From contig JAPPMP010000035.1 of assembly GCA_028819005.1 (NCBI GenBank), positions 9,501 through 73,500 of the forward strand: 64,000 bases of DNA, in the 5' to 3' direction. This DNA is from Acidimicrobiaceae bacterium (GTDB lineage Bacteria > Actinomycetota > Acidimicrobiia > Acidimicrobiales > Aldehydirespiratoraceae). Numbering within the stretch: position 1 is the stretch's first letter; every line of letters starts with the position of its first letter. The translations under genes and the position numbers were made by a program. Shown here piece after piece: positions 57,175-64,000 of this stretch. The notes below the pieces were generated by a model. The model had not been told where the DNA came from, made no database searches, and saw only the letters and a list, made by a program, of their open reading frames with translations.

Positions 57175-57759
57175 TTAGGGATCGCCGGCGAGGAAGAGTT
57201 CGGCTGCGTCCTCCAACTCGCGCACGCTCTGCTCGAAGGGGTTCCAGCCGTTCTTCCAGCCGATCAGTTCTGAGAACCAGATGTGCTCTAGGGAACGAAT
57301 GATCTTGTCGCGGCGGTCACGCGGATAGTCGGGCGGAAACGCCGTTCCTAGCATCGCGCTGAACATCTCGTGCATCTCCTGCTGACAGGCCGCTACCTGC
57401 TCCCCCTCGGCCACCAACCCGCCGATGAGAGCGGCGCTGACCTTCTGATTGCTTTGCATGGCCCGCGTTGTTCGCCGCAACAGGTCAAGCACCCGTTCGA
57501 GCGTCGTGTCGCCTCGTGCAGGATCGCGCGCGACGTTGGCTTCAAGCCCGCGGAGCCATTCGGCGAGGGTTTCAGCCAGCAGGTGGTCTTTGGATGTGAA
57601 GTAGTGGTAGACGGTGCCCAATGCGACGTCGGCTCGTTCAGCCACCTCGCGCATCTGCACTCCCTCATAGCCTCCTTCGCCGGCGAGTTCCAGCGCCGTA
57701 AGCAACACTCGCTGGCGGCGCTGTGCCTGTCTTTGGGTAAGGGTTCGCTCTGAACGCAC
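57175..57759 (-). CDS. TetR-family transcriptional regulator
   Basis: A 194-residue regulator: helix-turn-helix at about residues 30-55 (VQMREVAERADVALGTVYHY, then FTSKDHLLAE) and a helical ligand domain. The pattern resembles KstR-like TetR proteins that control lipid or steroid catabolism. It is divergent from an LLM oxidoreductase gene, 96 bp apart, a likely target. No clear palindrome was found in that gap. Confidence 0.88.
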   Translation of the reverse strand: MRSERTLTQRQAQRRQRVLLTALELAGEGGYEGVQMREVAERADVALGTVYHYFTSKDHLLAETLAEWLRGLEANVARDPARGDTTLERVLDLLRRTTRAMQSNQKVSAALIGGLVAEGEQVAACQQEMHEMFSAMLGTAFPPDYPRDRRDKIIRSLEHIWFSELIGWKNGWNPFEQSVRELEDAAELFLAGDP

Positions 57760-57855: not shown

Positions 57856-58932
57856 ATGCTGATCGACGTTTCTGTGACCGGCGACCTGTCGGGAGCGGCC
57901 GAAGGCGCCAGCGAGCTTGCGGCAACCGGGATAGACGGTCTGTTCACCTTCGAGGGAAACAGCGATGTCTTCTTTCCGCTGATCCACGCAACCGAACTCG
58001 ACGTGGACCTCTATACCAACGTGGCGATTGCATTCCCGCGTTCACCAATGCACCTCGCCTATTCGGCATGGGATCTGCAGCGGGCCTGCGGCGGTCGATT
58101 CGCGCTCGGACTGGGTACTCAGATCAAGCCACACATCGAACGGCGCTTCTCGTCGCAATGGAGCCGTCCTGTTGACCGCATGGTCGAGTTGATCACCGTA
58201 TTGCGGGCGATCTACGCCAACTGGGGTGACGGGACTCCGCTCGACCACCACGGCGAGTTCTACAGGGTGGACCTGATGACCCCGATCTTCGTGCCGGCAC
58301 CGCTCGGGCATCCGACTCCGGAGATCTGGGTCGGAGCGCTCGGACCCCGCATGACGCAGGCGATGGCCGCGCATGCCGACGGTATCATCATCCATCCGTT
58401 CAACACTGGTGCGTTCTTGGCCGACAAGACGATGCCGATGATCGAGACGGGCCTTGCCGAGAGTGGCCGGGAGCGGTCATCGCTGGTGCTCAACGTCGGT
58501 TGTATAGCGGCGCCGTGCCTCACCGACGAGCAGTACGATCGGGCAACCACGGCAATCCGATTCAACCTCGCCTTCTATGGTTCTACGCCCGCCTACCGAG
58601 TGGTGCTCGACCACCACGGACTCGGCGATCTGCAACCGCGGCTGCGTGACGCGACCAAGACCGGCGACTGGGCGACGCTGGGCGAGCTCGTCGACGATGA
58701 TGTCGTCGACCTGTTGGCTGTGCGAGGGACGCCTGCCGATTGCGCCGAGCGGCTGACCGAAGAATACGGGAACCACGCCGACCGCATGTCGCTGACCGTC
58801 TCCACACCGGCCTCCACATCAACCTCCTCATCGGCAGGCGAGGCCCTCGCCGCGATGGTTCAGGCCATGCGGGCCTTGCAAGAAGCTGAGCCCGGCACGC
58901 AGGCCGACCAGCCCCCTGCTCAGTCCTCGTAG
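57856..58932 (+). CDS. LLM-class F420-type oxidoreductase
   Basis: A 358-residue luciferase-like protein (GIDGLFTFEGNSDVFFPLIH, RACGGRFALGLGTQIKPHIE, PTPEIWVGALGPRMTQAMAA). The tail of about 45 residues is Ser/Thr/Ala rich and non-conserved. Its stop overlaps the end of the convergent Rieske gene by 13 bp. Substrate unknown; controlled perhaps by the adjacent TetR protein. Confidence 0.88.
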   Translation: MLIDVSVTGDLSGAAEGASELAATGIDGLFTFEGNSDVFFPLIHATELDVDLYTNVAIAFPRSPMHLAYSAWDLQRACGGRFALGLGTQIKPHIERRFSSQWSRPVDRMVELITVLRAIYANWGDGTPLDHHGEFYRVDLMTPIFVPAPLGHPTPEIWVGALGPRMTQAMAAHADGIIIHPFNTGAFLADKTMPMIETGLAESGRERSSLVLNVGCIAAPCLTDEQYDRATTAIRFNLAFYGSTPAYRVVLDHHGLGDLQPRLRDATKTGDWATLGELVDDDVVDLLAVRGTPADCAERLTEEYGNHADRMSLTVSTPASTSTSSSAGEALAAMVQAMRALQEAEPGTQADQPPAQSS

Positions 58933-60266
58933 GAGAGATCGAGACCGGAATCACATCCCGTCACCCGGTCGAGGTTGCGGTGCAGGTTGATTATCCGACA
59001 CTCCTCACCCGACAGTGTGAGATGGGTCAAACCCGGTGCGTGAAGCCCGCGCTGGGCGCGCCCCAAGTTGGTCACGTCTTGGTCCAGGACGAGACCCAAG
59101 CTGTAGGAACCCGGCTCCATCTCTGCTGTCAGGGGTTCTCGGCGCGCGGCATCGGGGTTGACCCGGTCGAAGGCGATGACGTCCATGTACCCGTCGTCGG
59201 GCGTCGCTCCGGGGCGGGCGCGCACCACTTGCAGCAGATCGCCGAACACCAGCACCGTGATGTTGGGAAACAGGTTGTACTGCTGCATGGTCATCATCTC
59301 GTCGGGTCCGAACCGGCTGAGATCCACGCCCTCGGCGTCACGGAAGTGATCCACGATCATGTCTGAGAGGACCTCGCGCAGCGTCGAGCCGGGCGGCACT
59401 TCGGGGCAGACGCCCGCATCGGTCGGCTCGCTCAGGCCGACACGGCCTCCCATCACCTCCACAAACCCCTCCCAGATCTCCTGGTCGGTGGCGCCGCCGC
59501 GCAGGCGGGGACTGGCCAGGCCGTAGGGCTGCACGAGCTTGCCGTGACGTTCCCAAATCGTCTGGGGACTGTTGACGTCGTCGACCATGCGCAACATCTC
59601 GGGGTGAATACCCTGCACATGGTAGGTCTCGCTGAAACCGTCGATGATCGTCTTCCAGTTGGAAGGCACCGGAATCGATATCAAGGCCTTGCAGCGGAAA
59701 TCGTCCAGGTCGGCCCAGGCGATGTCATCTGGGACAGGCGCCAGGAAATCGGCCAGCGATTCGGCGTCGGGATCAGGATTGACGAACACCATCGGACCCC
59801 AGGCATCGACCGCGATGGCGAACAGGGGGAAATCATCGTTGCGCAGCGCGCCGAAACCCTTTCGCGAGGGAACCTCGCAGAGCTCGCCCGCCAGATTCCA
59901 CGACCAGCGGTGGAACCCACAGCGCAGTTCGGCGAGTCCGGTTTGATTCTCGTTGCAGAGTTGCATCCCGCGGTGCCTGCACACGTTCTGGAAGGCGCGA
60001 AGCTCACCGTCATCGCCGCGCACTATCAGAATCGACAGGCGGCCGACATCGTACACGTGCACATCCCCCGGCTCGGAGACATGGTCCAATGTGCAGGCCA
60101 GTTGCCACGTGGTCGGCCAGAGTCTCTCCTCTTCGATTCGGGCCCAAGCCACCTCGGTGTAGCGTCCGGCGTCGACCTGCACGGGTTTGCTCACTCGACC
60201 GACCGAGACGATGGTCTCGCCAACGGGCGCATCGTTGGTGTGGACGTCGGGAGCGGTGATCGCCAT
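58920..60266 (-). CDS. Rieske aromatic-ring-hydroxylating oxygenase, alpha subunit
   Basis: A 448-residue non-haem oxygenase. The Rieske [2Fe-2S] ligands are C96/H98 (VCRHRGMQLC) and C116/H119 (LRCGFHRW). The mononuclear iron site is in GFSETYHVQGIHPEM (H216, H221) with a later Asp (not assigned). No beta subunit, ferredoxin or reductase gene is next to it, so it is probably an alpha-only enzyme that uses general partners. Substrate unknown; the operon holds an ArsC-like selenoprotein candidate and an acyl-CoA ligase upstream. Confidence 0.9.
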   Translation of the reverse strand: MAITAPDVHTNDAPVGETIVSVGRVSKPVQVDAGRYTEVAWARIEEERLWPTTWQLACTLDHVSEPGDVHVYDVGRLSILIVRGDDGELRAFQNVCRHRGMQLCNENQTGLAELRCGFHRWSWNLAGELCEVPSRKGFGALRNDDFPLFAIAVDAWGPMVFVNPDPDAESLADFLAPVPDDIAWADLDDFRCKALISIPVPSNWKTIIDGFSETYHVQGIHPEMLRMVDDVNSPQTIWERHGKLVQPYGLASPRLRGGATDQEIWEGFVEVMGGRVGLSEPTDAGVCPEVPPGSTLREVLSDMIVDHFRDAEGVDLSRFGPDEMMTMQQYNLFPNITVLVFGDLLQVVRARPGATPDDGYMDVIAFDRVNPDAARREPLTAEMEPGSYSLGLVLDQDVTNLGRAQRGLHAPGLTHLTLSGEECRIINLHRNLDRVTGCDSGLDLSYED

Positions 60267-60273
60267 CGCTGAC

Positions 60274-60657
60274 TCAGGCCGCGCTTGAACTGAGCATCTC
60301 GGCCACTCGAGTCTTGGCCATCACACCGTCGAAGGGGCGTCCGATTATGGCTTTGTCGGGTCCGACGAGGATCGGACGCTGAAGCAGTCGGTGGTACTTG
60401 TTGAGCACCTCCACCACGGCGTCCACGTTGCCGACGTAGTCGTCTTCGTTGAGGCCGAGTTTGGCGAACTGGGCGTCCTTGCGCACCAGGTTCTCGACTG
60501 GTTCCTCAAGCTTGGCGATCAGATCCCGCAGGGTCTGTTCGTCGGGGAAGTCCTTCATGTAGCGGACTTCGGTGAAGTCGACTCCCATCTCCGTGGCGAC
60601 CGCCACGGCGTTGCTCGACGAGTTTCAATGCTGGTTGTGGTAGATGGTCAGGGCCAT
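60274..60657 (-). CDS. ArsC/Spx-family selenoprotein candidate (in-frame UGA at active site)
   Basis: From the ATG at 60657 (AAGG seven bases upstream) the frame reads MALTIYHNQH, UGA at 60627-60625, then NSSSNAVAVATEMGVDFTEV. Arsenate-reductase-like proteins have MxxTIYHNPxCSxSR, with the catalytic cysteine exactly where the UGA lies, so residue 11 would be selenocysteine. The rest fits the family: RYMKDFPDEQTLRDLIAKL, the R60 in NLVRKD, and RPILVGPDKAIIGRP (R94, R107), 127 residues in all. Translation from GTG 60606 alone would lose the whole active loop. A perfect SECIS-like hairpin follows (own entry). Lies 7 bp before the Rieske gene. Function likely a selenol/thiol reductase; whether it acts on arsenate is unknown. 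Confidence 0.85.
60591..60608 (-). promoter_or_regulatory. Bacterial SECIS element of the ArsC-like gene
   Basis: On the minus strand, 16 bases after the UGA, CCGUGGC (60608-60602) and GCCACGG (60597-60591) form a perfect 7-bp stem around the loop GGUC (60601-60598). The loop lies 23 nt after the UGA and has the same GGUC sequence as the E. coli fdhF SECIS loop. Confidence 0.85.
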
Positions 60658-62231
60658 TGTCTGTCCTTGGATTGCCATTGTCTGTCTTTGTATTGATCGC
60701 GAAGCTCGTATTTGAGGATCTTCATGGTGGCGTTGCGGGGCAGCGGTCCGTCGTAGATCTCGAGTTGCTCGGGGGTTTTCTGAACCATGAGCCCAGCTTC
60801 TCTGCAAGCAGCTGACATCTCCTCAAAGGTCAGATCGGAGTGTCCCGCTGCGGTCTCGATCACCGCGCAGACGCGTTCGCCCCGATCTGGGTCGGGCAGT
60901 CCGATCACGGCCGCGTTCTCCACCGACGGCAGCGAGTAGAGCACATCCTCGACTTCCTTGGCCGAGATGTTCTCGCCTTTGCGGATGATGACGTCCTTGA
61001 CACGCCCGGTCAGCGTCACATGGCCGTCGGCATGGGCCACTCCGAGGTCTCCGGTGCAGAACCGGCCCTGGTCGTCGAACGCCTCGACGTCGAGGCTCGG
61101 GTCGGTGTAACCCATGAACAACATTGGCCCCTTGACACGGACTTCGCCTTCGACCCCATGCTCTGCAACGGCGCCGTCGGCGGTCACGATCGCCACTTCA
61201 CACCCTCTGATCGGAGCGCCCTCGGTGTGGGCGAGTTGTTCGTCGGTGTCCGACGGCGAACCCTGGCTGATCATCGGGCATTCGGTCATGCCGTAGCCGT
61301 GCGCGATCGGTATGCCCATCTTCTCTTTGACTTCGAAGAAGATCTCAGGGGGTTTGGGGGCGCCGCCGCCGGCCATGGCCCGCAAGAGAGGCATGGATCC
61401 GCCGCCGAGTTGTTGATCCCGGGCCAAGAACATCTGGTAGAAGGCAGTCGACCCGCCGACGATCGTCGCTCCGTGCTCGGCGCATGCCGCCACCGCCCCC
61501 GCGGGGGTGAACTTCTCGATCAGGATCGCTCCGAAGCCGTCTGTCAGCAGCATCACGATGAAGTCCGGGCCGCCGATATGGGCGTACGGGAAGGCGATCG
61601 TGCCCATGTCGTCAGCGTTGGTCTCCAGCGCCAGTGCGAGCCCGGTTCCCGCCGCCATCAGGGTCTTGTCGGAATGCTTGACTCCTTTCGGATCCGATGT
61701 GGTGCCCGAGGTGTAGTAGATCCAGCGCACGGCGGCGCCATCGTTCGGCGCTGGTGGCAGATCGCGGGGGTCGCCTTCGGGGAGATTCGCATATCCGTCG
61801 AGGATCTGCGGACGGGGGTGAAGATCTCGGCTTACTTCGGTTGCCATCGCGTGGTAGTCGAAATCGCCCCAGACTCCCGGGGTGAAGACGAAGCGCGCTC
61901 CTGTTTGAGCGATGCAGAACCCGACCTCTCGGTGCCGGTAGATGTGAATGATCGGGTTCTGGACAGCGCCGAGCCGCGACAGAGCAAAACTCAAGACGAT
62001 TGTCTCTATCCGTGTGGGCAGCTCCCATGTGACCGGGGCGCCTTCGGTTATTCCCAAGCCGTGCAGGCCTGCCGCAACTCTCTCAGCCTTGTCGCGGAAC
62101 TCGCAATAAGTGAGTTGCCGGCCGGCGTCGTCGATCAGGAACAGCCGGTCAGGCGAAAGCGCAGTCCGGCGTTCGAGCAGTTCCCAGAACGTCGCGGCAT
62201 CGAGAATCTGTTCGGTCACTTCGCCTCCCAT
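60648..62231 (-). CDS. AMP-dependent acyl-CoA synthetase/ligase
   Basis: A 527-residue ANL enzyme that activates a carboxylic acid to its CoA thioester. P-loop YTSGTTSDPKGVKHS, GYGMTECPMISQG (A5), RFCTGDLGVAHADGHVTL (A7), GRVKDVIIRKGENISAKEVE (A8) and the C-terminal lysine in RNATMKILKYELR. The C-terminus ends YKDRQWQSKDRQWP, an internal seven-residue repeat made by a 21-bp DNA duplication. The end overlaps the start of the ArsC-like gene by 10 bp. Substrate unknown. Confidence 0.92.
   Translation of the reverse strand: MGGEVTEQILDAATFWELLERRTALSPDRLFLIDDAGRQLTYCEFRDKAERVAAGLHGLGITEGAPVTWELPTRIETIVLSFALSRLGAVQNPIIHIYRHREVGFCIAQTGARFVFTPGVWGDFDYHAMATEVSRDLHPRPQILDGYANLPEGDPRDLPPAPNDGAAVRWIYYTSGTTSDPKGVKHSDKTLMAAGTGLALALETNADDMGTIAFPYAHIGGPDFIVMLLTDGFGAILIEKFTPAGAVAACAEHGATIVGGSTAFYQMFLARDQQLGGGSMPLLRAMAGGGAPKPPEIFFEVKEKMGIPIAHGYGMTECPMISQGSPSDTDEQLAHTEGAPIRGCEVAIVTADGAVAEHGVEGEVRVKGPMLFMGYTDPSLDVEAFDDQGRFCTGDLGVAHADGHVTLTGRVKDVIIRKGENISAKEVEDVLYSLPSVENAAVIGLPDPDRGERVCAVIETAAGHSDLTFEEMSAACREAGLMVQKTPEQLEIYDGPLPRNATMKILKYELRDQYKDRQWQSKDRQWP
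60653..60694. repeat. 21-bp imperfect tandem duplication at the selenoprotein start
   Basis: GCCATTGTCTGTCCTTGGAT plus T (60653-60673) and GCCATTGTCTGTCTTTGTAT plus T (60674-60694) differ at two positions. Each copy holds a start-like GACAATGGC on the minus strand; the downstream copy carries the ATG at 60657 used by the ArsC-like gene, the upstream one lies in the ligase gene. Confidence 0.8.
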
Positions 62232-62428: not shown

Positions 62429-62827
<399 letters not shown>

Positions 62828-62903: not shown

Positions 62904-63389
62904 ATGACCGATCCTGAGAGTGCACCAATCGTCACCTATCGCGACCATCGAGGGGACGAGAGACGGCTCATAATCAGGCTCGAAACAGGAACCAATATCC
63001 CGGCTTTCGAACAACTCCGCGCCCAACTGTCGGTGATGGCCGCTGTTGGACGCCTAGAGCCCCAGAGCAAACTGCCCACAGTGCGCGAACTGGCAGCCGC
63101 GCTGGACTTGGCTCCCGGCACCGTGGCCCGCGCCTACCGAGAACTCGAGAACGACGGGATCGTGGAGGGCCGCGGTCGCCGCGGAACTTTTGTGGTCGAT
63201 GAGCCGCCCCACAGCGAGCCGCTCCAGGAGCGTCGCGAGAGGGTGGCCGCCGCGGCTGGCCGCTTCATCTTTGAACTTCGCATGCTCGGAGTCGGACTCG
63301 ACGACGCACTGGAAGCGGCAAAGGCAGCAGACCGCCGACACGACGCCAAAACACACGACCCCAAAACAAAGGCGGCGCCCGCTCAATGA
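62904..63389 (+). CDS. GntR-family (YtrA-like) transcriptional regulator
   Basis: A 161-residue regulator: winged helix at about residues 25-95 (IPAFEQLRAQLSVMAAVGRL, KLPTVRELAAALDLAPGTVA, RAYRELENDGIVEGRGRRGT) and only a short helical tail, as in the YtrA subfamily; there is no large ligand-binding domain. Divergent from the PII gene with shared palindromes in the 136-bp A/T-rich gap, so it may control both. Confidence 0.88.
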   Translation: MTDPESAPIVTYRDHRGDERRLIIRLETGTNIPAFEQLRAQLSVMAAVGRLEPQSKLPTVRELAAALDLAPGTVARAYRELENDGIVEGRGRRGTFVVDEPPHSEPLQERRERVAAAAGRFIFELRMLGVGLDDALEAAKAADRRHDAKTHDPKTKAAPAQ

Positions 63390-63421: not shown

Positions 63422-64000
63422 TCAGCCCCAGAGTCCGGCGATCGGTACTGCTTCGATACGGTCGCCCAGCCAGTAGCGTCGTGGGCCGGTGTGGAACACG
63501 ACTCCGCCCGCGAACTGCTCGGGCGGAAGTTGGTCCCGCAGCCAGGCGATATGGCGGGCATCGCGGGGCCTGGGGGCACTGGAGGTCTTGATTTCCAGTG
63601 CTGCGACCTGCCGTCCGAACTCGACCACTAGATCGATTTCGTGTTCCCCGCCCTGGGTGCGCAAGTGGTAGAGGTGGGCTCGCCCGCCCGCTGCCTCGAC
63701 CTCGACGCGTAGTTGGGCGGCCACATAGGTGTCGATGATCCGAGCGCGGGTATGGGCATCGCGTGCCAGTGCCTCGCGTCCGACGCCGATCAGCCACGCA
63801 GCGAGTCCGGCGTCACTGAGGTAGCGCTTCGGTGTCGAGGTGAGCCGCTTGAGTCGGTTGGAGTGCCAAGCCGGCACATCGTCGATCAGGCGCATCACGG
63901 TCACCATCTCGTGGTAGCCCAACCCTGTGCGCCTGTCGACGCCCGCGGCTCGTGCCAGAGCAGTGTCTGGGACCACGCCAGACGTGTGTGTCGCGCAGGC
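63422..64000 (-). CDS. DUF4143 ATPase, C-terminal part (cut by window edge)
   Basis: The frame is open from the window end to the stop at 63422, 192 residues. It matches the C-terminal half of AAA_14/DUF4143 ATPases: NRLKRLTSTPKRYLSDAGLA, ARIIDTYVAAQLRVE, and the nuclease-like core HEIDLVVEFGRQVAALEIKT (E-D-K-x type). The ATPase half with the P-loop would lie outside the window. These proteins are often solitary, toxin-like or mobile genes of unknown role. A GTG at 63976 is in frame but is unlikely to be the start. Confidence 0.8.
   Translation of the reverse strand, partial: ACATHTSGVVPDTALARAAGVDRRTGLGYHEMVTVMRLIDDVPAWHSNRLKRLTSTPKRYLSDAGLAAWLIGVGREALARDAHTRARIIDTYVAAQLRVEVEAAGGRAHLYHLRTQGGEHEIDLVVEFGRQVAALEIKTSSAPRPRDARHIAWLRDQLPPEQFAGGVVFHTGPRRYWLGDRIEAVPIAGLWG

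Follow-up and report, generated by a model that had tools for sequence, protein, structure and literature searches.

Relatives of the arsenate reductase ArsC that contain selenocysteine (Sec) are a known kind of protein, in print since 2005, when 14 arsenate reductase sequences with a UxxS motif from the Sargasso Sea metagenome were reported as a new selenoprotein family (PMC1088965). The GOS metagenome contributed 77 Sec-containing arsenate reductase sequences (PMC2398784), and PMC9312934 and PMC13188914 also list Sec-ArsC; as far as the available portions of these papers go, the last assigns model TIGR00014 to Sec-ArsC and calls it, like similar selenoproteins, largely uncharacterised in function. 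The literature that we searched, with most subscription journals outside its coverage, yielded no paper on selenoproteins of Acidimicrobiia. Here we describe a Sec-ArsC gene in a 64,000-nucleotide stretch of an Acidimicrobiaceae genome (the window), together with its relatives across that class.

An ArsC-family gene with UGA at the catalytic position

A reading of the sequence alone had proposed that the frame MALTIYHNQH-UGA-NSSSN, at 60657-60274, places a UGA at the catalytic Cys position of the ArsC/Spx loop. Our analysis bears out the frame, which lies on the minus strand, runs from ATG 60657 to a terminal TGA at 60276-60274 and continues past the UGA, with the motif U-N-S-S, into an ArsC-fold protein (Table 1). 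As that reading had foreseen for gene callers, the mechanical ORF begins at GTG 60606 and the active loop is missing from it, such that gene calling from this GTG drops the Sec-ArsC active site. The N-terminus 5′ of the UGA is conserved among relatives, and the Shine-Dalgarno-like AAGGA is retained at the same spot in relatives L020-L024.

Table 1. Features of the Sec-ArsC locus in window coordinates, with the selD gene found elsewhere in the same genome.
Feature	Position	Strand	Remarks
Sec-containing ArsC-like gene (predicted)	60274..60657	minus	127 residues + stop; Sec at codon 11; UxxS motif
In-frame UGA, very probably read as selenocysteine	60625..60627	minus	84 TGA, 62 Cys, 0 other (146 readable rows)
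AAGGA, Shine-Dalgarno-like	60664..60668	minus	6 nt 5′ of ATG
SECIS upper stem-loop	60591..60608	minus	CCGUGGC-GGUC-GCCACGG; 7-bp stem, 16 nt 3′ of UGA
Acyl-CoA (AMP-forming) ligase	60648..62231	minus	PF00501, E 1.2e-60
Rieske ring-hydroxylating oxygenase alpha subunit	58920..60266	minus	PF00355, PF00848; 7 nt 3′ of Sec-ArsC
LLM-class F420-dependent oxidoreductase	57856..58932	plus	convergent; TIGR03617, 375 bits, above cut-off
TetR regulator, KstR-like	57175..57759	minus	below that model's cut-off
PII signal protein	62429..62815	minus	only PF00543 match in genome
GntR-type regulator, Rv1152-like	62904..63389	plus	below cut-off; upstream of PII
ORF at window edge	63425-63976		no NCBIfam match
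selD with in-frame TGA	L018, G000:C34:31354-32271	minus	

The protein matches PF03960 (E 6.6e-10, 39.6 bits) above the gathering cut-off of 24, and its best-matching model is TIGR00014 (E 4.3e-20, 72.3 bits, below the equivalog cut-off of 106.05). An AlphaFold2 model (pLDDT 89.6) finds ArsC structures as its best PDB matches, at a TM (query length) of 0.74-0.79 to the E. coli chains, with Spx next. His8, Cys12, Arg60, Arg94 and Arg107 have their roles in the active site of the glutaredoxin-linked arsenate reductase ArsC; H7, S14, R59, R94 and R107 of the query align with His8, Ser15, Arg60, Arg94 and Arg107, and Sec11 replaces Cys12. All three arginines are kept in 84/84 Sec and 62/62 Cys proteins. 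Spx regulators, by comparison, carry a CxxC redox switch. If the UGA were read as Sec in an Spx-like regulator with no enzymatic activity, the presence of Spx structures among the fold matches and the weak matches to Spx models would be expected, but the Spx/MgsR model TIGR01617 reaches just 47.8 bits (cut-off 75.05) and is outscored by ArsC, the motif is UNSS and the ArsC arginines are invariant. On the lower model score, the fold ranking and these arginines we reject an Spx identity, which we consider highly improbable, and the earlier description of the protein as ArsC-like stands.

To place the gene in its family we drew on two scans. Relatives were found in 130 of the 395 Acidimicrobiia genomes (136 rows), and the second scan gave 14 loci, every one in a MAG labelled Acidimicrobiia, Acidimicrobiales, Acidimicrobiaceae, Actinomycetota or Microthrix; five of these (L020, L021, L022, L024, L029) repeat whole-genome rows, so that the 150 rows represent 145 places. 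Four rows that start past the active site (G321, G162, G209, G178) were left out. Among the 146 readable rows every catalytic codon that is not TGA encodes Cys (55 TGC, 7 TGT), and none is TAA, TAG or another residue; UGA is found in the near relatives of the query and Cys in those further off, and the distinct places number 79 with Sec and 62 with Cys. The query has no cysteine at all, Sec11 being its only thiol or selenol, and 15 of the 84 Sec rows have a cysteine elsewhere in the protein.

Possession of the UGA form goes together with the means to decode it. The query's own genome (3.06 Mb, 52 contigs, 98% complete) holds the complete set of selA, selB, selC and selD: selA (402.6 bits) adjoins selB (276 bits), the tRNA-Sec scores 64 bits over its cut-off with the anticodon tca (ARAGORN), and selD (358 bits) itself has one in-frame TGA in its GAG-U-GCK loop, which makes it the second predicted selenoprotein of the genome. 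Across the class the search for selA succeeded in 258 of 395 genomes; the gene is present in 64/65 genomes with the TGA form versus 29/61 with the Cys form only (Fisher p 7.6e-12, in a test that ignores relatedness). The one Sec genome in which selA was not found, G379, is 82% complete and in 410 contigs. Among Cys genomes of the sister Sec clade, G338 has selA, and G019 and G297 are missing from the selA list.

A quick tree of 141 rows and 118 columns, built after masking the catalytic column, places the query in an all-Sec set of 44 rows (SH-aLRT 97; the query clade). The whole tree implies at least five Sec/Cys changes, of which the starred branches force two, and this minimum is rough because the tree is quick and 47 of its 138 inner branches are open. 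Such a natural series of Sec and Cys forms (79 versus 62 places) within one bacterial class should lend itself to studies of Sec gain and loss. A second, distant Sec-ArsC group, mostly with HNPGUGxS or HNPGUGxA and without the hairpin register of the query clade, was also seen (L096, L109, L113, L118, L125, L126, L132, L133, L135, L136, L142, L144, L147, L148, L152, L160, L166); four genomes (G184, G244, G312, G334) each carry one Sec-ArsC of this group and one NSSxNA-like gene.

The hairpin 3′ of the UGA

The perfect 7-bp stem with a GGUC loop that had been claimed 16 nt after the UGA is confirmed, and its loop is presumably the same as that of E. coli fdhF. The hairpin is part of the minimum-energy structure (RNAfold) and has the small apical loop with a G, just 3′ of the UGA, that marks a bacterial SECIS element under the definition used here, which follows PMC1088965 as given in its available part. 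From the window alone it is weak evidence: with fold z values of -1.05 and -1.44, and with 692 of 20,000 synonymous recodings scoring as well, it is moderately unusual and could arise by chance at a level of a few percent.

What makes the hairpin decisive is covariation across the family, not the window sequence. The loop is GGTC in 41/41 sequences of alignment A1, and over these 41 distinct 48-nt sequences the stem pairs are standard in 99.7% of 287 pair cells. Both sides are altered in 22 stem cells, versus 0-2 when the partners are slid by 1-3 columns, the double changes being a GC-to-UA switch in pair three and a GC-to-AU switch in pair five. The stem retains rare codons in spite of their background frequency: TTG fills 21 of 23 Leu codons, against a background share of 0.13. 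At the same register none of the 62 Cys genes reaches 7/7 pairs, and the best of them (5/62) reach 6/7.

The sister Sec clade (L051, L052, L053, L056, L059, L063, L065, L069-L074, L078, L080, L086, L087, L090) keeps a different, near-invariant hairpin, CAAUGC/GCAUUG with the loop CGUG(C/A), in 18 distinct sequences; our hairpin scan, restricted to GG at the loop start, missed it. As this hairpin hardly varies, pair counts speak neither for nor against it. Three Cys rows of the clade lose it, G019, G338 and G297 keeping 4, 1 and 0 of its 6 pairs. The CGUGC/CGUGA hairpin is a possible second SECIS type, which related SelB proteins may read.

The UGA might conceivably be a nonsense mutation, or a sequencing or assembly error, in a Cys gene whose product is made from GTG 60606 or lost, a reading that would fit the mechanical ORF and the chance level of the window hairpin taken alone. 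Against it stand the 84 rows, spread over many genera, that share TGA at this codon, the absence of TAA and TAG there, the conserved N-terminus, the covarying hairpin and the co-occurrence with selA; we therefore reject a pseudogene or sequencing error as extremely improbable. Conversely, the site that is UGA or Cys only, the Sec machinery, the selA co-occurrence and the covarying stem together lead us to regard the gene, with high confidence, as encoding a true ArsC-family selenoprotein.

Gene neighbours and the question of arsenic

The acyl-CoA ligase gene, whose nearest NCBIfam model is cyclohexanecarboxylate-CoA ligase (below cut-off), shares its last 10 nt, stop codon included, with the start of Sec-ArsC. 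With flanks of only 1.5 kb at many loci, extended for 20, and neighbours identified by tblastn with the window's own proteins (one cluster being checked by Pfam and identity), the ligase lies directly upstream in 14 of 44 query-clade places including the window (51-94% identity at the 13 others), and a full Rieske gene follows in 6 of the 44 including the window, with a fragment in one more. At 24/44 places a PII gene with the orientation of Sec-ArsC stands upstream, adjoining it in seven; none was found upstream outside the query clade within the flanks examined. The sequence-only reading had set the gene in a Rieske/acyl-CoA ligase cluster and in no arsenic operon. This holds at the window; as deep context it does not, the setting being recent and local, with PII/GntR conserved more deeply. 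PII together with GntR occurs upstream of Sec-ArsC across several bacterial families, and the pairing looks older than the ligase/Rieske setting.

A further acyl-CoA gene appears away from the query clade. In 14 distant rows, with Sec as well as Cys forms among them, the ArsC-family gene is followed in the same orientation by that of an acyl-CoA dehydrogenase (L140, L132, L163, L134, L148, L146, L147, L127, L142, L137, L157, L130, L169, L156). These 14 dehydrogenases share a median 66% identity among themselves and 35% with the cluster's other dehydrogenases.

The selenoprotein could also be a true arsenate reductase, in which Sec11 would attack arsenate held by the three arginines and arsenite would leave through an exporter other than those searched. 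Fold and family are those of ArsC, every site residue of R773 ArsC is present, the arginine pocket shows the full conservation that an arsenate substrate would lead one to expect, and the sister Sec clade has acr3 in 13 of its 18 genomes, which speaks for an arsenic role. The genomic record points the other way. Glutaredoxin-linked arsenate reductases usually neighbour arsenic resistance genes, although such linkage is no strict requirement. The query's own genome gave no match to acr3 or arsB, none to TIGR02691 at E 1e-15, and no second PF03960 gene, the single match being Sec-ArsC itself; and acr3 is absent from 11/11 genomes of the query's family. Over the 395 genomes acr3 is uncorrelated with ArsC relatives (33/130 genomes with a relative versus 63/265 without; odds ratio 1.09, p 0.80). 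On no contig does any of the 136 ArsC-relative rows come closer than 170 kb to acr3, whereas matches to the LMW-type arsC model TIGR02691 lie within 1.2 kb of acr3 in at least seven genomes of the class; fragmented assemblies limit both counts, and the second, which used matches below that model's cut-off and close pairs picked by eye, is a lower bound. The suggestion that the role may be other than arsenate reduction is strengthened by the missing exporters, the single PF03960 match, the absent correlation with acr3 and the 0/136 count. An arsenic role for Sec-ArsC looks doubtful on these genomic grounds, and we judge arsenate reduction unlikely, if far from negligible.

Predicted role and relation to known systems

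We suggest that SelB would bind the hairpin and bring Sec-tRNA to the UGA to give the 127-residue protein, and that the acyl-CoA ligase and the Rieske oxygenase would be co-translated with it. R59, R94 and R107 would form an oxyanion pocket. Because the protein has no cysteine to partner its lone selenol, an outside thiol or reductant would probably be needed, and, on the pattern of glutaredoxin-linked ArsC, a low-molecular-weight thiol and/or a redoxin may resolve oxidised or substrate-bound Sec.

Sec-ArsC here appears to be tied to fatty-acid-type metabolism, not to arsenic. We give about even chances to its being a monoselenol thiol/oxyanion oxidoreductase of acyl-CoA or alicyclic/aromatic acid metabolism, a predicted role with a putative substrate. 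More tentatively, and with the balance somewhat against so wide a claim, the Acidimicrobiia ArsC-fold family in its Sec and Cys forms may be a monothiol/monoselenol reductase of acyl-CoA metabolism and no arsenic enzyme, its old oxyanion pocket now accepting the CoA phosphate or another oxyanion; it might, for example, repair an oxidised or persulfidated CoA-type thiol, or the ligase or oxygenase. The restriction of the ligase/Rieske setting to close relatives counts against an acyl-CoA role, and adjacency to acyl-CoA genes may mislead, because the neighbours differ between clades and such genes are probably abundant in these genomes. A role that is neither that of an acyl-CoA oxidoreductase nor plain arsenate reduction seems improbable, though worth keeping in mind. 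Should Sec-ArsC indeed serve for something other than reducing arsenate, a known selenoprotein family would bear a misleading name in 'arsenate reductase', and its substrate would still have to be found.

Among ArsC-superfamily proteins, E. coli plasmid R773-type ArsC (PDB 1I9D, 1JZW) shares the fold and the equivalents of His8, Ser15, Arg60, Arg94 and Arg107 with the query, which differs in having Sec for Cys12, in its 27-29% identity and in lacking arsenic genes nearby. The Spx and ArsC-related regulators (TIGR01617) share superfamily and fold with a query that scores lower against their model and lacks CxxC. Sec-containing arsenate reductase 2 (cd03032), as described in the available part of PMC2398784, is likewise an ArsC-superfamily selenoprotein, with UxxC in contrast to the UxxS seen here. 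Closest of all is the metagenomic UxxS Sec-ArsC (PMC1088965, PMC2398784), which, likened by description from the available parts of both papers, agrees in COG1393/pfam03960/TIGR00014, in UxxS and in a SECIS element just 3′ of the UGA; by contrast, the present family sits in assembled Acidimicrobiia genomes, with gene context, host machinery and a Sec/Cys history. What our study adds to this known kind of selenoprotein is proof at the level of the genome, covariation in the SECIS element, a Sec/Cys series and evidence against a tie between this branch and arsenic.
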